Positions 3,546 to 26,586 of a stretch of DNA of 44,532 bases are shown one piece after another. This stretch comes from a virus, in the IMG/VR virus record IMGVR_UViG_3300045412_000366, positions 1-44,532 of that record. One strand, given 5' to 3'. Under the pieces are notes generated by a model. The model was not told the DNA's origin. It ran no database searches and saw nothing but the letters and a program-made list of their open reading frames with translations. Each line of letters begins with the position of its first letter. Position 1 is the first letter of the stretch. A program made the position numbers and the translations under genes.

Positions 3546-3928
3546 TTTAATCCTCCAGTTTCAAGCTTTTTTTTAATAAATTTAATTTGATCTTCAGTCA
3601 GAATTCTCAAAGCTTGTTCTGCCTTTTCATTACTATAGCCATAGTATGATTTGACACATTCAAGATCTTTGATATTTTCTTTCTTGGGCCAGAGAGAAAA
3701 TCTCTTCCTTTTTCTCAAACTATTTAGTAAAAAATCATACTGCATTTTTTTATTCAAGAAATGATTTATATTCATTTCATTTGCAAACATTATAGAATCA
3801 ATATGCCCCGAAAAACATTTATTAATAACATAAGGTACATAATCATGAACACTATCAGGATCAGTGTTCATTATACTGATCTTTGTCTGATTAATTGAAT
3901 TCAACCAATCCTTCAATTCAATACTCAT
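3542..3928 (-). CDS. 62: Clamp loader small subunit gp62
   Basis: A 128-aa protein in the T4 gp62 position between gp44 and regA. It overlaps gp44 by ATGA at its start and regA by ATGA at its end. It is shorter than T4 gp62 (about 187 aa), as in other marine T4-like phages. It begins with an ELKDWLNSIN segment and has LLNSLRKRKRFSLWPKK in the middle. In T4, one gp62 joins four gp44 subunits to open the gp45 clamp. Sequence similarity is modest; the assignment rests mainly on position and length. Confidence 0.86.
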   Translation of the reverse strand: MSIELKDWLNSINQTKISIMNTDPDSVHDYVPYVINKCFSGHIDSIMFANEMNINHFLNKKMQYDFLLNSLRKRKRFSLWPKKENIKDLECVKSYYGYSNEKAEQALRILTEDQIKFIKKKLETGGLK

Positions 3929-4881
3929 TTAAATTTTGCCTCCACCATTATCTCAGTAAATGCGGCAAGAAGATTTATCTCTTGATCTGCTACAAAAGCC
4001 GATTGGTACTGATACTTTGCCACAATAAGTACGCAAGCAGCAATACTGGGACCATCCAAATGTTGATATAAAGCATCATATACACTCCGAAGAATAGTAC
4101 TAGAGTCATTATCAAGATTTGAAACAATCCATTTACGAACTTCCGTAAAGTTCTTCTCTTTGATATGTTTAATGAGATCATTTGTTTTTATGTCCGAAAA
4201 ATTTACAAGAATACCAGAATCAATTTTACCAGATACTGAATATCGTTGACATTCATTTAAAACCCTTCTCCAATCGGGAAAATGTTTATTAATTAACCGA
4301 AAGAGAACTTTCTTATCGTATTCAATTTTTTGCTCAAGCAAGATTTCTGAGATTCTTTTGAAAAATTCTGCTGATAGTTGTGCTCTCTGTTCAGATCCAA
4401 TTCTAAAGTCCACAACGGAACAACGGGAATGGAGTGGTTCAATGATTTTGTTTTTATAGTTGCAGGTAAATATAAATCTGCAGTTGCTATAATACTTCTC
4501 AACATTCGCCCGTAAGAGGAGTTGTACATCGTTGGTTGTGTTATCAGCTTCGTCAATAATGATGACTTTGTGCTTAGCATCCGATGTAAGTGAAACGGTT
4601 GTAGAAAAGTTCTTTGCTTGGTTTCTAACTGTATCAAGAAATCTTCCCTCATCACTACCATTAATTACATAGTTATCTGCTCCCAATTCATTACACAATG
4701 CTTTAGCTATTGTAGTTTTACCAATTCCCGGAGGGCCAGCAAGAAGAAGGTTGGGTATTTCTCCTTGTTTTACAAAATCTTTAAAAGTCTGTTTAATGTC
4801 TGGCGGAAGAATGCAATCTTCAATTATTCTTGGCCTATACTGCTCTACCCAAAGAAAATCAGTTTTTTCAGTTTTCATCAT
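3925..4881 (-). CDS. 44: Clamp loader ATPase gp44
   Basis: A 318-aa AAA+ ATPase, the same length as T4 gp44 (319 aa). It shows WVEQYRP at the N-terminus (the RFC-box-like start), Walker A GPPGIGKT at residues 49-56, Walker B IIIDEAD near 107, a sensor-like FTCNYKN, and the SRC motif (LHSRCSVVDF) that supplies the arginine finger in clamp loaders. It forms the motor that loads the gp45 sliding clamp on primed DNA. The first of two adjacent ATGs (4881 or 4878) is used here; neither has a clear Shine-Dalgarno. It lies 69 bases after the 169-aa gene. Confidence 0.96.
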   Translation of the reverse strand: MMKTEKTDFLWVEQYRPRIIEDCILPPDIKQTFKDFVKQGEIPNLLLAGPPGIGKTTIAKALCNELGADNYVINGSDEGRFLDTVRNQAKNFSTTVSLTSDAKHKVIIIDEADNTTNDVQLLLRANVEKYYSNCRFIFTCNYKNKIIEPLHSRCSVVDFRIGSEQRAQLSAEFFKRISEILLEQKIEYDKKVLFRLINKHFPDWRRVLNECQRYSVSGKIDSGILVNFSDIKTNDLIKHIKEKNFTEVRKWIVSNLDNDSSTILRSVYDALYQHLDGPSIAACVLIVAKYQYQSAFVADQEINLLAAFTEIMVEAKFK

Positions 4882-4950
4882 ATAAATAAATCAAAGGAAT
4901 GTTATTAATTTCGGTTAAAATTTCATTCAAAATTTTAATCTGACTCATAA

Positions 4951-5460
4951 TCATACCCAATCAGGTTTTCTGGACGGAATACGAAGATAATTATCTTTCA
5001 CCCAAGGCTTGGATGCAATATACATCTTGTAAGCAGTAAAAGTGTCAATGCTGTCGTCAAGTTTATACTCATCAGGCATCGCACGAACAAAGTTTTCTAC
5101 ACTGGTAATCTTACCTTTTGGAAAAAGATAATATGCGTGTAAAAGAGTATTATAGCACGAATGTGTTTTACCATATCGTACAGAGTACTCATCGCAGAGA
5201 TTCATACCGTGTTTAATCAACCAATACGCATTATGAATGGACTTCGCAACCCATTGAGTACAGGGGTGATTACGAAAAGCACCCTTTTCAGTTGCATAAG
5301 GTGTACCATCTGCTTTGGGAAGAGTGCCGTAATTATGATACCATTTAGATGCCACGATTGCCAAAAGTTGGCAAGTTTCTACTGGCATTTTTGTTATATG
5401 TCGGTCAGGAAGTACAATTGCACTTTCTGCAGGAAATTTATTTGTCACAAAAACATTCAT
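4951..5460 (-). CDS. Conserved phage protein, 169 aa, in replisome operon
   Basis: Not assigned to a named function. Visible features are an N-terminal beta-strand (MNVFVTNKFP), LPDRHITKMPVETCQLLAIVA, an RNHPCTQWV motif, and LCDEYSVRYGKTHSCY with several conserved-looking H, Y and R residues, followed by a hydrophobic helix. I recall similar proteins with the D-x-H-x-x-K-M-x-x-E and NHP-x-x-x-W motifs in many phages, usually annotated hypothetical; the polar residues suggest an enzyme. It sits between the clamp gene (ATGA overlap at 5457-5460) and the clamp loader, so it is co-expressed with the replisome. The gene is certain; function is open. Confidence 0.85.
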   Translation of the reverse strand: MNVFVTNKFPAESAIVLPDRHITKMPVETCQLLAIVASKWYHNYGTLPKADGTPYATEKGAFRNHPCTQWVAKSIHNAYWLIKHGMNLCDEYSVRYGKTHSCYNTLLHAYYLFPKGKITSVENFVRAMPDEYKLDDSIDTFTAYKMYIASKPWVKDNYLRIPSRKPDWV

Positions 5461-6128
5461 TCGCCAAAAGTGGAATCGGGTTCAAGTGCAATGTAGTATA
5501 CCAGATCTATAGTCGTATGACGGAACCTAGAAAAATTTTGTTGCGAAATGACAACTTCGTATTTTCCAGGAAGAATCTTTAAATTCTCTACCCTAAAGTT
5601 GAAGGTAAAGATTGAATCTGTTTGACCCACATTAATAGAAAATTCATTAGAAGTTGAATTTTCTTTATCCCTTACCAATAGTTTAATTGACTTACCATCT
5701 CCAATTACAGTAAGATCAAATATTTGATAAACTGCAGAAGCTTTCAATAAACTTTTAAGTTGATCTGAACTGAGTTCAAAACAAACGTCTTCAGATGGAA
5801 GTTTAATTTCCTTATCCAGTGAAGGACTGATAATAAGAGATGGATCTGCAAAATAATATTTTGTCTTATGACCGCCACCATGAATTGTTAGGTAAGAATC
5901 ATTATCAAAAGTAATTTCTGGATTTTGATGAAGGGACACTCCATTCAAAAATTGGCCCAGATCATAAATTGCAAAATCCCGAGGAATCGTTTCAGTAATT
6001 GAAGCTTCAGCAAAAAGATTTTTCATCAGGGACATTGTTTTGATTTTATTGCCCGAACGAAACATCAAAGATTGATTCACATCAACAAAGTTCCTAAGCA
6101 GTGAAATTGTTTTGTCAGAAAGTTTCAT
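5457..6128 (-). CDS. 45: Sliding clamp gp45
   Basis: A 223-aa processivity clamp. The start MKLSDKTISLLRNF at 6128 is chosen because it aligns with the start of T4 gp45 and has AAGGGA upstream; an in-frame upstream start at 6161 would add 11 residues inside the preceding gene. Two-domain clamp features include FAIYDLGQFLNGVSL and a central LPSEDVCFELSSDQL segment. The clamp tethers gp43 to DNA. In T4 it also serves as the mobile activator of late transcription by binding gp55 and gp33, which matters here because gp55 and late promoters occur in this window. It overlaps the DUF3310 gene by 14 bases. Confidence 0.94.
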   Translation of the reverse strand: MKLSDKTISLLRNFVDVNQSLMFRSGNKIKTMSLMKNLFAEASITETIPRDFAIYDLGQFLNGVSLHQNPEITFDNDSYLTIHGGGHKTKYYFADPSLIISPSLDKEIKLPSEDVCFELSSDQLKSLLKASAVYQIFDLTVIGDGKSIKLLVRDKENSTSNEFSINVGQTDSIFTFNFRVENLKILPGKYEVVISQQNFSRFRHTTIDLVYYIALEPDSTFGE

Positions 6129-6471
6129 AGGTTCCCTTAGTTTCATTGTCAAGACCAGCAAAATGATAAAGTAAAATACAATAGTGAATTACTTTGAGAA
6201 TATCAAGTTTGGACTTACCATTCTTCTTACCAAACCGACTCAAATACTTAATTGCATTGCTTCGGCAAAATGGTTCAGCATCACCAATAGATTCAATCAA
6301 ATCTAGAGTTTGGACTTTTGAACTTTCGGAGGTGTAGTGTGAATGGTAAGTTCTAGCAACATATTCTTGAACTTCTTTTAAAATTTTATCTTCATTATAT
6401 TTCCAATGAAGATCAATAGTATTAGTTTCCTTGCATTTCAAGGTATATTTGGTATCAGATGTTTCAGACAT
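6115..6471 (-). CDS. DUF3310-like protein
   Basis: A 118-aa protein whose second half matches the DUF3310 pattern: a leucine-rich DLIESIGDAE, then FCRSNAIKYLSRFGKKNGKSK, then a hydrophobic helix. Such proteins are widespread in phages and are sometimes labelled nucleotide kinases, but they lack a P-loop and the activity is unproven. It is the first gene of the replisome operon, 36 bases after a perfect sigma70 promoter (6507-6535), and it overlaps the clamp gene. Confidence 0.82.
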   Translation of the reverse strand: MSETSDTKYTLKCKETNTIDLHWKYNEDKILKEVQEYVARTYHSHYTSESSKVQTLDLIESIGDAEPFCRSNAIKYLSRFGKKNGKSKLDILKVIHYCILLYHFAGLDNETKGTYETF

Positions 6472-6485
6472 AATTTGAATTATAG

Positions 6486-6504
6486 GGGGAGGACATGCCT
6501 CCCC
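6486..6504 (-). terminator. GC-rich hairpin between cobS and the replisome operon
   Basis: GGGGAGG (6486-6492) pairs with CCTCCCC (6498-6504) across a five-base loop. There is no T-run on either side. It follows the CobS stop but also overlaps the expected transcription start of the promoter at 6507-6535, so it could be a weak terminator or a 5' hairpin stabilising the replisome mRNA. Confidence 0.5.
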
Positions 6505-6506
6505 AA

Positions 6507-6535
6507 ATTATATCATACCGATTCATCTTTGTCAA
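6507..6535 (-). promoter_or_regulatory. Perfect sigma70 promoter for the replisome operon
   Basis: On the minus strand TTGACA (6535-6530), a 17-base spacer and TATAAT (6512-6507): both hexamers and the spacing are exact consensus. It overlaps the 3' end of cobS and points at the DUF3310-gp45-gp44-gp62-regA operon. This matches an early promoter read by host RNA polymerase. Confidence 0.88.
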
Positions 6536-7649
6536 CTACATTTGAAGAATTAGATTCTTTAAATTCTTCAGATTCACCGGTTCCATCAACCGCATTGTAC
6601 AAATTCATAAACGATTGTTTGGTGATTTCATCAAACCGATTGATGCAATGGCGAATGGCCTTGTCTTTATTCTTAAAGATTGCATATGTACGAATGATGT
6701 GAACCAAACGACGAGTACTAATTACCTCTTCAATTCCACCATCATAGAAGGTTTTACGAATGTTATCTGCCCAACGAACTAGGTAATTGCAAAATTCACT
6801 GCAATCTTCAATATTCAAACTGGAACAAACTTTTTCCAGAATCTTAAGTTCAATAGCCGTTTGGGGATACTTTTGCTCTAAGGTGATGTAGAACCTTTCA
6901 AGAAAGGCTTCGTTGAGCACATTAGTTCCAATGAACCTTCCATCATCTGAACCTTTGCCTTTAGTATTGGCGGTTGCGATGATTGTAAATCCGGGTTTTG
7001 GTTGAATAAATTTTCCAATTTTTTTAAGGAATACTCCCTTCCCTTCCAGGATAGATTGGAGACAGAGAATTTTGTTAGAGGCAAGGTCAATTTCGTCAAG
7101 AAGCAATACAGCTCCTCGTTGGAGGGCTTCAATGACTGGGCCGTTGTGCCAGACGGTATCCCCATCAATAAGACGAAAACCGCCAATAAGATCATCTTCA
7201 TCAGTTTCAATTGTAATATTTACACGAATAAGTTCTCGCTTTAGTTGAGCACAAGCTTGTTCTACACAAAAAGTTTTACCATTACCAGAAAGGCCAGTAA
7301 TGAAGGTGGGATAAAACAAACGAGTAGAAATGACTTTTTTAATGTCTAAGAAATTGCCAAAGTTGACAAAGTTATCATCTTTTTCTGGAATAAGATTTTG
7401 TTCAATTGCTGGAATTGCTGCAGGAGCAATATATGCATTTTCAATTTTTTCAACTTCTTGAGGAGTAATCTCAAGATTCCACTTACCGTGACCAGTTTTA
7501 AATTTTTCCAAACGACGAGTTACAGTGGGATATGAAATATCTTTCATAGCACAATATCCACGAATATCACCTGAGGTTATTTCTGGACCATAAGTAGCCT
7601 TAAGATCTTGAAGGATCTGATCATCAGTCATCATAATTGTTTTGGGCAT
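6513..7649 (-). CDS. cobS: CobS-like MoxR-type AAA+ ATPase
   Basis: A 378-aa AAA+ ATPase of the CobS/MoxR group. The start MPKTIMMTDDQ at 7649 is the first ATG; a TTG at 7670 would add seven residues. The N-terminal 60 residues resemble a small DNA-binding-like helical segment (SYPTVTRRLEKF). Walker A is GLSGNGKT (residues 119-126), Walker B LLLDEID (182-188), sensor I IIATANT, and the arginine-finger region NEAFLERF. Family knowledge: CobS powers cobalt insertion with CobT and CobN, while related MoxR ATPases act as chaperones with vWA proteins. Its partner here is probably the vWA protein at 8743-10923. No CobN is in the window, so a role in cobalamin synthesis is not shown. Confidence 0.9.
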   Translation of the reverse strand: MPKTIMMTDDQILQDLKATYGPEITSGDIRGYCAMKDISYPTVTRRLEKFKTGHGKWNLEITPQEVEKIENAYIAPAAIPAIEQNLIPEKDDNFVNFGNFLDIKKVISTRLFYPTFITGLSGNGKTFCVEQACAQLKRELIRVNITIETDEDDLIGGFRLIDGDTVWHNGPVIEALQRGAVLLLDEIDLASNKILCLQSILEGKGVFLKKIGKFIQPKPGFTIIATANTKGKGSDDGRFIGTNVLNEAFLERFYITLEQKYPQTAIELKILEKVCSSLNIEDCSEFCNYLVRWADNIRKTFYDGGIEEVISTRRLVHIIRTYAIFKNKDKAIRHCINRFDEITKQSFMNLYNAVDGTGESEEFKESNSSNVVDKDESV

Positions 7650-7684
7650 TGGTTCATTTGTTATCAGCAATGTAATACTACATG

Positions 7685-7709
7685 AAAAAGGGGGCTATCA
7701 TAGCCCCCC
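7685..7709 (-). terminator. Intrinsic terminator after the 318-aa gene
   Basis: GGGGGCTA (7690-7697) and TAGCCCCC (7701-7708) form a perfect eight-base-pair stem with a three-base loop. On the minus strand it is followed by TTTTT (7689-7685). It lies between the stop of the 318-aa gene (7731) and the cobS start. Confidence 0.85.
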
Positions 7710-7730
7710 TGTGCCAGTTTGGAAAGTGGT

Positions 7731-8687
7731 TTATTTATCACCACTCATATGTCTTTCAGATTCTCTTGCTTTCTGTAGTGCTTGCCCAGTATTTTGCTTT
7801 CCAGGAATAAAAGTAAGAGCAGAACCAGATTTTTTCTTGTTTTCTTTATTAAATTTTTTTTGAAGATATTCGGTTCTTGTAGTTTCTTCAACAATACTCC
7901 GCTTCCACTCCTCACTCATATTTGCCATAATTACAATAGCATTTTTATTCGTATCAGCATAACCTTCAGAAATTAAATAGTCCATCATCATATCAAAGAA
8001 ATCATAAGAATCTGTGGTATAGCTTTTACCCTGAAAATTGAATGTCTTTGCTCCAGCAGACTTTTGCTTAGCATATTCTTTGTCAAAAGATTGAGCAACT
8101 GTTCCAACTTTACCTTGACCAACTGCTAAACGATTCCGAATTCTTCCACCAGGATCCATAGTATTATATTTTCCAACAGATTGCTGAGCCTTCGTTGATT
8201 TTGAAAGAAGAGCAGTAGAAGGAGTATCTTGTGAAGATGTTGGAGTTGGCTCCATAACTGCAGCAACAATTCCTAGAGGAGATCCAATTCTGGCAGCTCT
8301 AGCAATACCCAAAGCTTTAGATGCAGGAACTAACATTCCCGAACTTGGCTTATTGATATAACGATTCAATTGTGGAAAATTTCCAGTTGGCCCTGTGGCA
8401 CGAACTGTTGCTCCAGGAGGAGGGCCAGGAGTACCACCAGTAGCCCGCAATGTATTTAATGACAATTGACCTGGAGATGTTTTTGGAGTAGGAGATTCAA
8501 CTGACGTAGATGTTGGTTTAGAAGTTGAAACTGGATCAGTTGCTCTAAATGTAGTTGAAGATCCTCCGCCTTTGCGATTAAACTTATATGGAGTTGCATC
8601 ATCCCTCTTTAAAAGTCTACCTTGAAGGGCATCTTCATAAATGCTAGTATAAACTTCTGTTAAACTTTGTATTGTTTTAGAATTCAT
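7731..8687 (-). CDS. Linker-rich protein between CobS and CobT-like genes (318 aa)
   Basis: Unnamed marine-phage-type protein. It starts with an amphipathic segment (MNSKTIQSLTEVYTSIYED). Residues 40-190 are low-complexity, rich in P, T, S, G and A, with a short hydrophobic helix around SKALGIARAARIGSPLG. The C-terminal third has YDFFDMMMDYLISEGYAD and AIVIMANMSEEWKRSIVEE, a motif pair I associate with several marine T4-like virion or hypothetical proteins, then a basic tail. SLTE fits the T4 prohead protease rule (L/I-x-E), so it could be an internal head protein; this is inference. A late-promoter-like AATAAATA lies 21 bases before its start and a terminator follows it. Confidence 0.8.
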   Translation of the reverse strand: MNSKTIQSLTEVYTSIYEDALQGRLLKRDDATPYKFNRKGGGSSTTFRATDPVSTSKPTSTSVESPTPKTSPGQLSLNTLRATGGTPGPPPGATVRATGPTGNFPQLNRYINKPSSGMLVPASKALGIARAARIGSPLGIVAAVMEPTPTSSQDTPSTALLSKSTKAQQSVGKYNTMDPGGRIRNRLAVGQGKVGTVAQSFDKEYAKQKSAGAKTFNFQGKSYTTDSYDFFDMMMDYLISEGYADTNKNAIVIMANMSEEWKRSIVEETTRTEYLQKKFNKENKKKSGSALTFIPGKQNTGQALQKARESERHMSGDK

Positions 8688-8707
8688 AATTCTAATTAGT
8701 TTTATTT

Positions 8708-8715
8708 TATTTATT
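8708..8715 (-). promoter_or_regulatory. Late-promoter-like AATAAATA before the 318-aa gene
   Basis: The minus strand reads AATAAATA, one base from the T4 late consensus TATAAATA. It lies after the terminator of the CobT-like gene and about 20 bases before the ATG at 8687. In such AT-rich DNA a single match is weak evidence; position raises its value. Confidence 0.4.
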
Positions 8716-8738
8716 AAAAAAGGGGGCCTAAACCCCCC
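8716..8738 (-). terminator. Intrinsic terminator after the CobT-like gene
   Basis: Five to six G/C pairs (GGGGG 8722-8726 with CCCCC 8733-8738) across a short loop, followed on the minus strand by six T residues (8721-8716). It lies just past the CobT-like stop at 8743. Confidence 0.75.
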
Positions 8739-8742
8739 AATA

Positions 8743-10923
8743 TTAAGAAATCAAAGAAACAAATTCATTTAGAAACTTTTTATTCATTTTATTCAAATTT
8801 ACAGATCTTTTAAAAGCAGTTAGAACGCTTTCATTTGGCTTTACTTTTAAAGAACTATCTTGATTTAAAGAGCTAAGAGATATTCCAAAATATTTGGTAT
8901 ATCCACAATTAGTGAGACTAATTGATTTATTTTTTTTCCAATCATCTTTCAGAGATTTGATTTTATCATCATCCATAGGATAACGATTGATAAAATAATT
9001 AAACTCACCAGATTCCACTAAACGTATTCCAATGAAATTAACTTCAGGATTAGCTTCCTTTACACATTCAAGAATTTTAGAGTTAATTTGATAATGACCT
9101 GAATCTAAATTATAGGTCTTTCCGGTTGAACGATTCCGAAGACATACTCCTGGGCGAAGTGAGCGATATCCCATATAGCAATCTTCACCATTACTAGTTT
9201 TAATCATTTTGTGATATGGAATGCCAGCAGCATCTCCATCAGTTAGAATAATACAATGCAGTTTCTGAACCTTTGTTTTTTTCCTAAACTCTGGAATAAT
9301 TTGCCCCAAACTAATCATAGCCTCATTTAAAGGAGTTCCAGAAAGAGAAGCAAATGCAGGAATAGTATAGGAAGCATATCCACGATCATTATAATAGTAA
9401 GCAATACGAAAAATATTTTTCATATAACTATCTAAAATATTTACTCTAGATTCGCTGGTAAGAATTTTAATCATTTTAAAATCGCTTGGAACTGAAAGTA
9501 AATATTCTGCAATTTCATAGGATCTCTTTAGAATAATTTTTTTGTCATTCTCCACTTCATAATATTCATTTGAAAAAGCATAAACTTCAAAGGGAATACT
9601 AGCTTTTTTGCAGAATAGAACAATATTAAACATCTGCTTTACAGTATCAAAAATACATCCATCCATAGAACCAGACCAATCCAAAACAAAAATCAATCCG
9701 TGATTTTTTCCATCAGATAGAGTTGTTACTTTTTTAAATAGATCTTCATTATACTTGTAAGTATGAAGCTTGGAGCAATCTAAAATTCCAGTGCGAGAAG
9801 TTTTTGCACGAGCATAAGAATCCGCAGTTTTTTTGCATTCAAATTCCTTCATCATATAATTGACTTGGTTTTGAGCATCTTGCTTATATTTCAAATATTT
9901 ACCATCCGGTATTGAAGTATCACTATCAACATCTTTCCAATATTTTAAAAGTCTACTATGAAAAATATCAGACTCAATAATAATATTTTTCAAATTCAGT
10001 TTTGGAAATTCAACATACACAGTTTCTTCACTGGTACCATTAATTAATTTTTTAATAGATTCTTCAAAACTTTTGTCTGTACGAACTGTAGGTTCAGAAT
10101 CAGTTTTGTCTCCACCTAGATTAGATTTTGATTGAGATTCTGTAGATTCAGAATTCAATTCATCTAATTCATTTTTTGCCTCTCCATCAGAAGGAGTTTC
10201 CGTAGTTTCTGGTTCTGGACTTGAACCATCCGTAGAACTTCCTTGAGAAGATTCTTGTTCTGAAGATTCTGGAGTAAATTCCGAAGTAGATTCGGAAATT
10301 TCTGAAGATGCTTCACCATCAGAAATAATTTCATAGTTCTCTACATGCTCATTTATAGAATTTAAATTTTTTAGTTCTTCTTTACAATATTTGTACATAA
10401 GACGAGCAGCATTTAGAGCATCTTCAAAAGTCTCAGATTTCTCTATAAGATCTAAAATTTGCTGTTCTTCTTCATTAAATTCAATAATTAGAAAATTACC
10501 GATCTTAAAATGAAGATTAACTCGGTCTGCCAAATTGAAAGTAGTGATATCAAAATCTTCGCCCAGACAGAAAAAATCTATATCATAAAGTTCTTTGTAT
10601 CCAGTATAAAAAATCCTATTCAATCCATTATACCTACGCTTCATCAATTTTTCAATACGAGCATCTTCAGTAATATTGACATAAGACTTTGGAACATCTT
10701 GAATCTGTTTCCAATCTTCTATTGGAGTATACAATGCATGACCAACCTCATGGCCCACCAGAAGGTCGTATACGGTCGCAGAAGCCCTTTCCCAGATGGG
10801 AAGGGTCAAAACCCTCGTATGGATGTTAAAGCAGGCCGTAGAGACCTTCTTATGCTCTACTACGAGATCTTCAGTAGCAAGAAGACGAGCAAGATTTCCT
10901 TTGACTTCGTAATTAATGGTCAT
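8743..10923 (-). CDS. CobT-like vWA protein with predicted zinc metallopeptidase motif
   Basis: A 726-aa protein in three parts. The N-terminal domain has a zinc-peptidase motif HEVGH at residues 58-62, followed by NITEDARIE (83-91), whose E86 is a plausible third metal ligand. Residues 200-290 are an acidic S/E/T-rich linker, as in CobT. The C-terminal domain is a von Willebrand A domain with the MIDAS motif DWSGS (415-419) and a later LTDGDAAG. Classic CobT has the acidic linker and vWA domain; the HExxH domain points to a protein-processing role. The CobS-like ATPase encoded downstream is the expected partner. The ATG at 10923 is the only good start; no Shine-Dalgarno is clear. Confidence 0.9.
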   Translation of the reverse strand: MTINYEVKGNLARLLATEDLVVEHKKVSTACFNIHTRVLTLPIWERASATVYDLLVGHEVGHALYTPIEDWKQIQDVPKSYVNITEDARIEKLMKRRYNGLNRIFYTGYKELYDIDFFCLGEDFDITTFNLADRVNLHFKIGNFLIIEFNEEEQQILDLIEKSETFEDALNAARLMYKYCKEELKNLNSINEHVENYEIISDGEASSEISESTSEFTPESSEQESSQGSSTDGSSPEPETTETPSDGEAKNELDELNSESTESQSKSNLGGDKTDSEPTVRTDKSFEESIKKLINGTSEETVYVEFPKLNLKNIIIESDIFHSRLLKYWKDVDSDTSIPDGKYLKYKQDAQNQVNYMMKEFECKKTADSYARAKTSRTGILDCSKLHTYKYNEDLFKKVTTLSDGKNHGLIFVLDWSGSMDGCIFDTVKQMFNIVLFCKKASIPFEVYAFSNEYYEVENDKKIILKRSYEIAEYLLSVPSDFKMIKILTSESRVNILDSYMKNIFRIAYYYNDRGYASYTIPAFASLSGTPLNEAMISLGQIIPEFRKKTKVQKLHCIILTDGDAAGIPYHKMIKTSNGEDCYMGYRSLRPGVCLRNRSTGKTYNLDSGHYQINSKILECVKEANPEVNFIGIRLVESGEFNYFINRYPMDDDKIKSLKDDWKKNKSISLTNCGYTKYFGISLSSLNQDSSLKVKPNESVLTAFKRSVNLNKMNKKFLNEFVSLIS

Positions 10924-20395: not shown

Positions 20396-21040
20396 TTAAA
20401 GATTTCTAAGATACTGATTGAATAGATTTAAAATTCTATCTTCACGAACTGTTTTATCAATTGTTGGAGTTAAAGATTTGATTGAACGCAGAGTTTTTTC
20501 TGATAAAACTCCATTACTCCATACCCATTCCTTACCTTCCATAATTCCTTGAATAAATGCATCTGGAGCAGAAGGATCTGCTACAATATCTGCAGCAGTT
20601 GAAAGCATAAAATCATCTCCAACATATTTAATTCCATTACGTTCAATTAATGAACCAACTCCCCTAGAAGAAACACCAAGTTTTACACCACCCTCTAAAA
20701 GATTTTTTGCAATTGATCCCATAGGAGTTTCAAGAATTTTTGCCTTTCCAATAAAGTTTGTTCCTTCTGGGACAAGACTAGTAATCATGTGAGAAACCCG
20801 ATGTAAATTCACTGTTGGGCCATCAGGATGCCCAAGTTCACCTAAAGCTCTTCCACTTTTAATATAATTTTCATTATATTTTTTAACTTCTCTTTCAAGA
20901 ATATCATAAGAATAATGCCTGCCATTACGATTTGTAATTTCAGCCTGAAGAAAAGGCCCAGTCACGTACATGGACTTTTTACCGTTTTTACTTTCGGTAA
21001 TAACTTTAACTTCTTCTACTTGTTCGGTGATAAGTTTCAT
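20396..21040 (-). CDS. 21: Prohead protease gp21
   Basis: A 214-aa serine protease of the T4 gp21 family (T4: 212 aa). The ATG at 21040 (MKLITEQVEEVKVITE) has AGAGG upstream and gives the family length; an in-frame upstream start would run through the preceding gene. Motifs include the N-terminal YVTGPFLQAEITNRNGRHY, ELGHPDGPTVNLHRVSHMI carrying the catalytic-type histidine, and LGVSSRGVGS carrying the serine. It cleaves gp23, the scaffold and internal proteins after L/I-x-E. It follows the 175-aa gene by two bases. Confidence 0.95.
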   Translation of the reverse strand: MKLITEQVEEVKVITESKNGKKSMYVTGPFLQAEITNRNGRHYSYDILEREVKKYNENYIKSGRALGELGHPDGPTVNLHRVSHMITSLVPEGTNFIGKAKILETPMGSIAKNLLEGGVKLGVSSRGVGSLIERNGIKYVGDDFMLSTAADIVADPSAPDAFIQGIMEGKEWVWSNGVLSEKTLRSIKSLTPTIDKTVREDRILNLFNQYLRNL

Positions 21041-21041
21041 T

Positions 21042-21569
21042 TTATGCCTCTGAGCTAATTTGAACTTCTGAAATGCTAAGAACTGAAGTTGACACATTTG
21101 CACGGGCAGAAATTTTAATACTTCTTGCAACAACTGCACTACTTCCAATTGCAACATTCGTAAGTGAAGTACTATTAAAATTAATTACGATTGAATCTGA
21201 ATTTGAAAATAATATTTTTGTATGAGTAGTATTAATTCCTGATGTAGTTGCTCCTTGAATTGCAACATAATCATTTACTGAAAATGGATTTCCTGCATTT
21301 TCAGCAAATGAAATAGTGGTAGTTGTTCCTGTAGTAATACCGGAAATTGCTTGTCTAGCAACTCTTTCTTTTAAAATTTGTGCAGTTTGAATTGGGATAT
21401 GAAAAGAATTTACTGTAGCAACAGGATCATTTCCAATTTCTAAATATGCAGCAGTTGCAGCAGTAGATACTCTAATATATCCAGTCTTTAATGCAATTCC
21501 TGCAGTTGTTGTAGCAGCTCCAGAAGATGCTTCTAGTTGGGCATATGTTTGAACTATTTTTAATGCCAT
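21042..21569 (-). CDS. Putative head-region structural protein (gp68 position)
   Basis: A 175-aa beta-rich protein full of T, S, A and I, beginning MALKIVQTYAQLEASSGAAT. It contains FSVNDYVAIQGATTSGINTTHTKI-type strands like the modules in the tail proteins of this phage. T4 has gp68 (a prohead core protein) in this slot, but this sequence does not look like a helical core protein, so homology is doubtful. A different possibility is a capsid decoration protein. GATAAATA, a near match to the late promoter, lies at 21595-21602. Confidence 0.75.
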   Translation of the reverse strand: MALKIVQTYAQLEASSGAATTTAGIALKTGYIRVSTAATAAYLEIGNDPVATVNSFHIPIQTAQILKERVARQAISGITTGTTTTISFAENAGNPFSVNDYVAIQGATTSGINTTHTKILFSNSDSIVINFNSTSLTNVAIGSSAVVARSIKISARANVSTSVLSISEVQISSEA

Positions 21570-24219: not shown

Positions 24220-26586
24220 TTAAACTTTGCCGACGACTTCTTCAAAGCTGATACCAGATCTGGTAGCAACAAAGGTTAAGCCAATGAAATTAATACTACG
24301 AGCTGGTTTCACATAAATATCAGCTCTGAATTCATTTGCATCAATAATAGCCGGAGTGTTATTGCTTTCATCACAAATAAGTCTATAATCAATAATACCT
24401 CTCTTAGCAACTACGTCACGAAGATATGGTTCAACAATATTTACAAAATTAGATCTTGTAATTGCATCATTAAACTCAAACAATTGAGTTCTTGCTGCAA
24501 CTTCAATTGCACCTTCAATTGTAAGGAACAACATTCTAATATTAATTCTATCAAAAGCTGAAGCATATGATAGCCCAGTTTTATCACCAAAAAGAATAAT
24601 TCCAGCACCAGGAGAATAAATTACGGGATTAACTCTACTAGAATAAAGTTGATCTCTTTGAGTTTGTGATGGATTATATGCAAGTTTTACTGCATTGTTA
24701 ATAACACCTCTTTTAGCTCCAGCTGGAGAGAACCAAGGGAAATCTCTATATGCAGTTCTAGCTAAACAGCCAGCAACATCAGCATTTAAAGGAACATAAA
24801 CAAACTGACTATTAAATCTGTCATAAGTATACTTATACCCACTATCAAAAATTGCATAAGATGATGAAGTTATTGGCGAATAGAAGTTAAGAACATTTGT
24901 AGTTTGAGTTGCACTATTTGTAATATTTAAAATTGAAGCTTTATCAGGAGAAATTGTAGCAACACAATCTTTTCTAAGATCTGCAATAGAAATTAGTTTA
25001 TTTGCCTTTGCCTGAGTTGTAACTTTATCAGTAATATCTGGACCCATAATTAAATAATTTACAGAGTATTCTCTGATATTTTCAAATAAACTGTAGGAAG
25101 AAATTAAATCACTTAAAGTGGTAGAATACTGTGGATTTGTGTATGCAGATGCAATTCCAGAAGTTCCATAAGAATTTCCGCCCAAGAGATTATAAGTTAC
25201 TGAACCGGTTGCATTAAAAGTTACTCCTTGAGCTTTTTGTCCCCAAACTCCACCACTAGTTCCAGCAAATCCAGTTGCTGATCCAATTGGTGCAGCTCCT
25301 GCATAAACATATGATGAATTTTGAGCAACATAAGTTTTATAGTAATTATTTACTGCAACTGATGAAACTGAATCAGAAGCTTTTGATAATCCAATATGCT
25401 TCTCTAAAATATTTCCAGAAATTCCAGTAACTGAACCACTATCGTCTACAACCACAAGATGCATTTCATCATTTTTACAATTTCTTGTAGATGCATATGC
25501 AGTTGTTCCTGGTTTTGGAGCAATTTGAGACCAATAAACAGTTGAATTGGTTAATTTCAAAGTTTGATTAGAATACCAATCCGTGATTGTGGCAGTAGTA
25601 GTGCCAGTAGATCCGATTCCAATAAATGATCCAGTAGGAGTGAATTGGTAAGTTCCTGGAGAATATGAAACTGGAAATTCTCCTACAGTTGAATCTACAA
25701 CACCTACAATCTTTACATCAACTGATGCACTTCCGACACCTGTTACAATTCCTTTCAAATAACCACTTACAACTGATACAGTTCCAACTCCACTGACACT
25801 AGAGCTAAAAAATTGTGTTACAGCAGCTCCGACAGAAACTTCAGAATACGTTTGAACTGTTGAAGTTCCTCTACTGAAAGTTAAAGTTGTAGTAGCAACT
25901 CCCACCGAAGATGAAGGAAGTGAAAGATATACAGTTCCTACTCCAATGGAAAGAATTGTAGTTCCTGAAGTGATAAAAGTTCCGTTAACTGAATCTCCAA
26001 TCAAAAGATTTGAAGTATCAACGCCGACACTTACATCAAAAGCTTCACTAAAAGTTCCCGCAGTCGTAGCAATACCAGTAACTACTGTTGTTAATGAAGT
26101 TGAAACTCCGGTTACAACTCCAGAAAGTGTTTGATCCGCAAGAGCATCAATTAAACAGACCTTTAAATTATTTGCCCAAGTTCCAGGTTCTCTAGCTGCC
26201 CATCCCCAACTGGATGCACTAGTATGATTGGTATTGTAATCTTCGTAATTTTTAATTTTAACTGTAGTTGAACCAATACCCGCATTAGTAGGAGCATTAG
26301 CATTATTTAAATTTGTACCATCACATCTTACAAGTTGAAGTACTCCCCCATAAGAAAGATAACTAGAAGCCGAATACCAATACTCATATTGTGCATCATT
26401 TACTTGGGGTTTCCCAAAATTATCAATTAATTCTTTTTCGTTAGATATTAAAATTGGATATTCTACTGGACCTCTTTCAAATGGCCCTGCAAAGGCTCCC
26501 GTTAAAGGAGTTGCAGCATTAGTTCTTCCAGTAGTGAGATCAACCTCTCTTGTTTTTACCCCAGGTGAAATTAAACCTAAAGCCAT
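24220..26586 (-). CDS. 18: Tail sheath protein gp18
   Basis: A 788-aa contractile sheath protein (T4 gp18 is 659 aa). The N-terminus (MALGLISPGVKTREVDLTTG, then GAFAGPFERGPVEYPILISN) and the C-terminus (GLTFVATRSGISFEEVVGKV) are typical. Around residues 153-335 there is a G/T/S/V-rich beta segment, which accounts for the extra length and lies where T4 sheaths carry surface domains. An exact TATAAATA late promoter (26624-26631) and GAGGAA ribosome site precede it. Confidence 0.97.
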   Translation of the reverse strand: MALGLISPGVKTREVDLTTGRTNAATPLTGAFAGPFERGPVEYPILISNEKELIDNFGKPQVNDAQYEYWYSASSYLSYGGVLQLVRCDGTNLNNANAPTNAGIGSTTVKIKNYEDYNTNHTSASSWGWAAREPGTWANNLKVCLIDALADQTLSGVVTGVSTSLTTVVTGIATTAGTFSEAFDVSVGVDTSNLLIGDSVNGTFITSGTTILSIGVGTVYLSLPSSSVGVATTTLTFSRGTSTVQTYSEVSVGAAVTQFFSSSVSGVGTVSVVSGYLKGIVTGVGSASVDVKIVGVVDSTVGEFPVSYSPGTYQFTPTGSFIGIGSTGTTTATITDWYSNQTLKLTNSTVYWSQIAPKPGTTAYASTRNCKNDEMHLVVVDDSGSVTGISGNILEKHIGLSKASDSVSSVAVNNYYKTYVAQNSSYVYAGAAPIGSATGFAGTSGGVWGQKAQGVTFNATGSVTYNLLGGNSYGTSGIASAYTNPQYSTTLSDLISSYSLFENIREYSVNYLIMGPDITDKVTTQAKANKLISIADLRKDCVATISPDKASILNITNSATQTTNVLNFYSPITSSSYAIFDSGYKYTYDRFNSQFVYVPLNADVAGCLARTAYRDFPWFSPAGAKRGVINNAVKLAYNPSQTQRDQLYSSRVNPVIYSPGAGIILFGDKTGLSYASAFDRINIRMLFLTIEGAIEVAARTQLFEFNDAITRSNFVNIVEPYLRDVVAKRGIIDYRLICDESNNTPAIIDANEFRADIYVKPARSINFIGLTFVATRSGISFEEVVGKV

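Follow-up and report, generated by a model that had tools for sequence, protein, structure and literature searches.

Do the genes annotated as cobS and cobT in T4-like cyanophages encode subunits of a cobaltochelatase, and what is the gene that may lie between them? We considered these questions in the IMG/VR virus record IMGVR_UViG_3300045412_000366, whose entire 44,532-base sequence (hereafter, the window) represents part of the genome of a freshwater T4-like cyanophage (Kyanoviridae). Three open reading frames (ORFs) on the minus strand are at issue: a CobS-like ATPase (385 amino acids), a 318-amino-acid (318-aa) protein, and a CobT-like protein (726 amino acids) (Table 1). A preliminary description of the sequence had proposed a MoxR-type protein-processing system, with the 318-aa protein as candidate substrate or adaptor; the ORFs, motifs, terminators, and late promoter-like box that it listed were all located at the positions given. 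Sequence comparisons and predicted structures lead us to propose, with a probability of roughly 0.7, that the cobS/cobT-like pair encodes a MoxR-family AAA+ motor and a vWA co-chaperone with an intact gluzincin-like domain, not a cobaltochelatase, and that the intervening gene is a separate late cassette. The usual name of this otherwise ordinary core cyanophage pair is probably wrong.

The CobT-like protein carries a conserved zincin-like site

Proteins of the PHROG 459 family are usually annotated as "peptidase" or CobT. In the window protein, both the HEVGH motif and the downstream NITEDARIE were found in place. Residues H58, E59, H62, N83, E86, D87, R89, and E91 were present in 82/82 distinct IMG/VR homologues, a set of best-scoring matches and as such biased toward close relatives. 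The HExxH plus NxxEDxR motif was also found in P-HM2, Syn9, P-SSM4, S-TIM4, Stenotrophomonas phage DLP_6, and Ochrobactrum phage OC, and likewise in 14 phage-like contigs from genome bins. All distant phage homologues reaching the site kept these residues, except for a Glu-to-Asp replacement at position 91 in some. Because the HExxH was invariant in the 82 homologues and in every distant homologue covering the region, a coincidental motif was rejected; loss of the motif in most homologues, which the preliminary description had named as grounds for abandoning its proposal, is the opposite of what was observed. H58, E59, and H62, together with E86, would thus supply the HExxH helix and downstream ligand of gluzincin-like zincins. 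The N-terminal 118 residues were mostly 60-75% conserved across phages, compared to less than 60% for the whole protein.

A scan of genome contigs with the CobT-like protein yielded no close cellular homologue: its 14 loci seem to be phage contigs that were binned with cells. These contigs, mostly also bearing cobS, had been binned as bacteria or archaea (e.g., "Euryarchaeota" and "Rhodopirellula" bins), which is likely binning contamination.

AlphaFold2 modeled the whole CobT-like protein with a predicted local distance difference test score (pLDDT) of 78. Since a fold search with this model gave only vWA folds as top matches, the N-domain (residues 1-198) was modeled separately (pLDDT 87, predicted template modeling score 0.81). 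The resulting model featured three strands, a helix (residues 49-65) containing HEVGH, and a helix (residues 79-97) containing E86. Strands followed by the HExxH helix and then a ligand helix is the zincin order. The best PDB folds were ArdC, the minigluzincins selecase, jannalysin, and abylysin, and PprI, all of them zincins but weak matches (E 0.013-0.3), and a search of predicted viral structures recovered this N-domain from many vWA proteins of phages and haloarchaeal viruses. As modeled, the order of secondary structures in the N-domain fits a zincin fold. In the vWA domain the metal ion-dependent adhesion site (MIDAS) was complete, as in vWA co-chaperones: the phage alignment showed no variation at D415, S417, S419 (DxSxS), T530, or D562.

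The CobS-like protein is a MoxR-clade ATPase distant from cobaltochelatase CobS

PHROG 249, to which the ATPase belongs, is annotated as "porphyrin biosynthesis". The true start of the protein is probably ATG 7649 and not the listed TTG 7670, because homologues begin at Met8 of the listed ORF. The Walker A, Walker B, and sensor 1 motifs, Arg259, and the Arg320-Arg321 pair were invariant in the phage CobS alignment. An AAA+ core with Walker A/B, sensor 1, Arg finger, and sensor 2 was thus found along with matches to the MoxR clade; sequence matches in the PDB were midasin, CobS, NorQ, and CbbQ. Some 460 phage records contained PHROG 249 and PHROG 459 proteins with most of their length covered; cyanophages accounted for nearly all of these records, and few T4-like cyanophages lack the pair.

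In the published interpretation, viral CobS and CobT stand in for or reinforce two subunits of the aerobic cobaltochelatase and work with the host CobN, providing more B12 for class II ribonucleotide reductase (PMC8651126, PMC5083919). The ATPase is genuinely homologous to the CobS of cobaltochelatase (PDB matches with E 5e-37), its gene adjoins that of a vWA partner as in cobST, and cyanobacterial hosts possess a PF02514 protein (seen in a control genome). However, the full zincin site of the N-domain is missing from genuine CobT: HExxH was absent from 11/11 genuine bacterial CobT proteins, where the region resembles HDAKLH...EQARVE. The PHROG 459-type N-domain scored only 3% against genuine CobT in HHalign, versus 95.5% (E 1e-8) against a profile of two vWA proteins, from the integrative and conjugative element (ICE)-like plasmid pR997 and a Polaromonas plasmid, both of which carry HExxH and NxxEDxRIE. 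At E≤1, the window protein matched neither of the CobT models PF06213 and PF11775, and 1 of 55 CobT-like homologues showed a weak match (E 0.018).

On the ATPase side, the window protein reached 82.3 bits on TIGR01650, below the equivalog cut-off of 558.55 for cobaltochelatase CobS, compared to 565-723 bits for genuine CobS from 12 genomes, and phage and genuine CobS were 25-30% identical. An AAA+ tree also parted the two groups, but we give it little weight because its branches are long and it lacks an outgroup. No cobN was found in the 44,532-base fragment or, as PF02514, in 12 complete related phages; a host cobN lies outside the reach of such a search, whose sensitivity is possibly imperfect, as PF02514 gave no signal in a Caulobacter control where CobT and CobS did.

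Three further observations speak against the chelatase. The same pair is present in Pelagibacter phage HTVC008M, whose host, it has been proposed, obtains such nutrients by scavenging (PMC4303638); related pairs reside on Enterobacterales plasmids; and S-SRM01 and S-CREM2 have their own alpha/beta ribonucleotide reductase genes, class Ia by annotation in S-CREM2. We therefore regard a viral cobaltochelatase as improbable. Both a profile comparison of the CobT-like protein with CobT versus zinc peptidases and a search for cobN elsewhere in the genome had been suggested in the preliminary description. Its preference for a MoxR ATPase with a vWA-metallopeptidase agrees with the invariant HExxH plus Glu, the zincin-like model, the ICE profiles, the CobS score (82 versus 558), and the lack of cobN.

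Several points nevertheless count against this preference. No PDB fold match of the N-domain was better than E 0.013, a weak value, and zincin motifs can persist for structural reasons. The ICE/plasmid profile was built from two sequences only, and one of these, the pR997 protein, scores high enough (48 bits) to clear the cut-off of the CobT model PF06213. CobT is therefore a distant relative, with the pR997 protein bridging both groups, and may have lost its active site as one branch of a shared superfamily. The branches of the AAA+ tree are long and unrooted, and viral CobST has been argued to hijack the host CobN (PMC8651126). With CobT as a distant relative, a chelatase-like role is still formally conceivable.

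Gene neighborhoods and promoters suggest a replication or takeover role for the pair

Protein remodeling by MoxR motors together with MIDAS/vWA partners is known from several systems (PMC7159879). For the phage pair, we infer ring assembly, zinc binding, peptidase activity, and a protein substrate: the AAA+ ring would bind the vWA protein via its MIDAS domain, the vWA/linker region would capture a protein, and ATP hydrolysis would remodel this protein while the zinc domain clips it.

In the window, the pair is neighbored by gp55, gp47, gp46, gp45, and gp44. The DLP_6 pair lies near uvsX and a primase gene, both the DLP_6 and OC pairs are located among replication/recombination genes, and in pR997 ssb, bet, and an exonuclease gene stand beside the vWA cluster. 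The published cyanophage late promoter NATAAATA (PMC2984593) was found upstream of 0/82 cobT and 0/77 cobS genes. Because late promoters are lacking and such genes are its neighbors, a role in replication/recombination or the takeover phase is favored; this guilt by association suggests that the pair does not act in virion assembly.

The latter function has been proposed for a jumbo-phage MoxR-vWA pair of identical domain architecture, which would make the cyanophage pair a chaperone-peptidase that processes structural proteins, and a MoxR-vWA pair without peptidase serves the tail assembly of an archaeal virus (PMC7824862). Against this stand the missing late promoters, the replication/recombination neighbors, and a head maturation protease, gp21, that is separately encoded. 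We consider virion assembly unlikely, though less so than a cobaltochelatase.

The intervening gene is a separately regulated late cassette

The 318-aa gene has its own T4-type late promoter (AATAAATA) and is bracketed by terminator-like hairpins. In its family, composed of low-complexity proteins of shuffled modules, NATAAATA was found within 60 nucleotides (typically 24-37) upstream of 50/59 genes, compared to 1.7% of random 60-nucleotide stretches; the difference from cobT and cobS was highly significant (Fisher p 3e-29). Other window genes with this late box upstream encode gp23, gp22, and the portal protein; a large ORF (24220-26586) has it too. The separate regulation suspected in the preliminary description was thereby borne out.

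A second proposal of the same description, in which the 318-aa protein serves the pair as substrate or adaptor, fared less well. Its gene lies between the two genes here, and in 27 of 49 IMG/VR loci with full context related genes were located immediately upstream of cobT or in the cobT-cobS interval. However, further family members occur elsewhere in the same genomes, and the contents of the slot vary: it holds pcyA in P-SSM4 and no gene in P-HM2, and in S-8S55 a speD gene adjoins cobT. The pair and the family were also doubly dissociated. Marine cyanophages and S-CREM2 have cobS/cobT and lack the 43-aa helical module, of which freshwater cyanophage records contained 2-5 copies each and the marine phages tested none, whereas Synechococcus phage B23 showed four module matches (one weak) and no cobS/cobT anywhere in its 243,633-base record. 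S-CREM2, without the module, is a phage for which a virion proteome has been published. Because of its own promoter class, the variable slot, and this double dissociation, the 318-aa protein is not a conserved partner of the pair: an obligate one was ruled out, and a dedicated substrate or adaptor appears very improbable. A plasmid search with the 318-aa protein gave no match.

In B23 (MN695335, 177936-183030), the gp46-gp45 interval contains two hypothetical genes, one of them module-bearing, instead of cobS/cobT.

Most likely, the 318-aa product is an internal head protein, packed inside the virus head. This is likelier than a substrate because its N-terminus (MNSKTIQSLTE-VY) resembles T4 capsid-targeting sequences, such as MKTYQEFIAE-A of IPII/IPIII. 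Of the 59 family members, 42 have (L/I/V/M/F)xE followed by A/V/S/G among their first 20 residues. In T4, the function of the first ten residues of internal proteins has been described (PMC9026906), and Alt is cleaved at ITE-6 and LTE-619 (PMC5694885). A late promoter, as in T4 internal-protein genes, was found both here and, as noted above, in most of the family. Weighing against this assignment, the capsid-targeting role would follow from resemblance only.

Three large late hypothetical genes were observed in S-SRM01 (MW015081, 175050-179308), two with the module and one starting MKSFSQFLEESY like T4 internal proteins. The latter gene, whose start MKSFSQFLEE-SY is more T4-like than that of the 318-aa protein, sits between the two module-bearing genes and shares its linker with the 318-aa protein (E 3e-8 with filters off); this match is only suggestive because the linker is of low complexity. 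The genes of this cluster are candidate internal head proteins.

Genome context and implications

The closest named relatives of the window are freshwater Synechococcus phages, e.g., DSL-LC03 and S-SRM01. Its T4-like cyanophage gene set comprises gp23, gp22, gp21, portal, and terminase genes, with gp55, gp47/46, and gp45/44 flanking the cobS/cobT-like pair. At the end of the cobS gene (6507-6535), a perfect sigma-70 promoter-like site (TTGACA-17-TATAAT, extended TG) is directed to the gp45/gp44 genes.

Table 1. Coordinates of the features discussed, with their evidence
Feature	Position	Strand	Evidence or remark
MoxR/CobS-type AAA+ ATPase	6513..7670	-	PHROG 249 E 1e-130; AAA_5 E 2e-18
Walker A GLSGNGKT, residues 126-133	7272..7295	-	G126, G129, G131, K132 invariant in phage alignment
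Intrinsic terminator between 318-aa and cobS-like genes	7688..7710	-	10-bp stem, then TTT
318-aa late, low-complexity, modular protein	7731..8687	-	Own late promoter, flanking terminators, modules common to freshwater cyanophage proteins
43-aa helical module DxFDxILxxLxxEGYADTxxxAxxIMxNMSEEWxxSIVEE	7884..8012	-	Family alignment
N-terminal MNSKTIQSLTE, resembling T4 capsid-targeting sequence	8655..8687	-	Possible cleavage after LTE-11
T4-type late promoter AATAAATA	8708..8715	-	Begins 28 nucleotides upstream of 318-aa start codon
Intrinsic terminator between cobT-like and 318-aa genes	8721..8738	-	GGGGGG-TTTA-GGCCCCC, then T run
CobT-like protein: N-terminal zincin-like metallopeptidase domain (predicted), acidic linker, vWA domain	8743..10923	-	PHROG 459 E 9e-244; AlphaFold2 models
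MIDAS DWSGSM of vWA domain, residues 415-420, with T530 and D562	9664..9681	-	Fold matches MDN1-MIDAS, NorD
NITEDARIE, residues 83-91, predicted helix 79-97	10651..10677	-	E86 candidate third zinc ligand
HEVGH, residues 58-62, predicted active-site helix 49-65	10738..10752	-	H58, E59, H62 in 82/82; helix by DSSP of model
Head maturation protease gp21	20396-21157		Present as own gene

In marine and freshwater viruses, cobS is widely counted as an auxiliary gene for B12 or nucleotide metabolism, and from it a viral boosting of B12 has been inferred. Should the pair instead be a protein-remodeling protease, these ecological inferences would no longer hold in hundreds of genomes, and a testable biochemical activity could be assigned to a gene pair that is among the most highly conserved, yet unexplained, in cyanophages. 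By resemblance to T4, the 318-aa family would provide candidate head-packaged proteins of freshwater cyanophages, and, as an insulated late cassette, the gene separating cobT from cobS is possibly of interest in its own right.

A wider proposal is more tentative, and we would give it less than even odds: nearly all T4-like cyanophages, together with pelagiphages and haloarchaeal tailed viruses, may encode an ATP-driven metalloprotease machine of replication or takeover; bacterial CobT would share the zincin-vWA ancestor of this machine but have lost the active site; and freshwater cyanophages would have placed modular, late, capsid-targeted internal head proteins around the pair.

Comparison with known systems

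A literature search found no publication joining phage cobS with MoxR and chaperone. The idea is not wholly new, since Iyer et al. (2021, PMC7824862) had put forward a MoxR-vWA-metallopeptidase pair in jumbo phages. There too, a MoxR AAA+ gene is next to one whose vWA product has a metallopeptidase domain at its N-terminus; the pair belongs to group 2.2 jumbo phages, was assigned to virion assembly, and is likened to the cyanophage pair by domain architecture alone. The main text of that work does not mention CobS or CobT. Atu_ph07 was rejected as the jumbo-phage source of ASV44729.1/ASV44728.2, as it bears other accessions. The study of viral CobST (PMC8651126) concerned the same genes, described the cobST cluster as cyanophage core, called cobT "mistakenly annotated as a peptidase", and read the products as cobaltochelatase subunits; here, the N-domain HExxH plus Glu, absent from genuine CobT, favors the "peptidase" label.

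The AAA-DUF3150-vWA clusters of ICEs and plasmids (pR997 and Polaromonas plasmid 2) share the vWA protein with HExxH and NxxEDxRIE, and in pR997 a MoxR-type AAA gene lies nearby, as in the phage pair. They differ in the extra DUF3150 gene and in belonging to conjugative or mobilizable elements; pR997 differs further in its adjoining ssb-bet-exonuclease genes and in a vWA protein that scores on PF06213. These vWA genes lie by DUF3150 at 3893-8765 in pR997 (with the AAA gene) and at 3900-6887 in Polaromonas plasmid 2. An Acinetobacter plasmid (1502-4813) holds a CobT-like and MoxR gene pair, its vWA protein lacking HExxH, unlike the phage and ICE proteins.

Bacterial CobS/CobT also combine an AAA+ motor and a vWA protein, and an EDxR-like EQARVE helix remains in CobT; however, CobT has no HExxH, the CobS proteins share the low identity given above, and their partner is CobN, which was not found here. 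NorQ/NorD, CbbQ/CbbO, and midasin, MoxR-clade motors with MIDAS partners, are similar in ATPase sequence and vWA fold matches, whereas an intact zincin domain like that predicted for the phage vWA protein is not known from this analysis for those MIDAS partners. Finally, although the 318-aa family has no body homology to T4 internal proteins and its 43-aa helical module is absent from T4, it resembles IPI-III and Alt in a short putative N-terminal targeting sequence that ends in a prohead-protease-like (L/I)xE site and in variable bodies.

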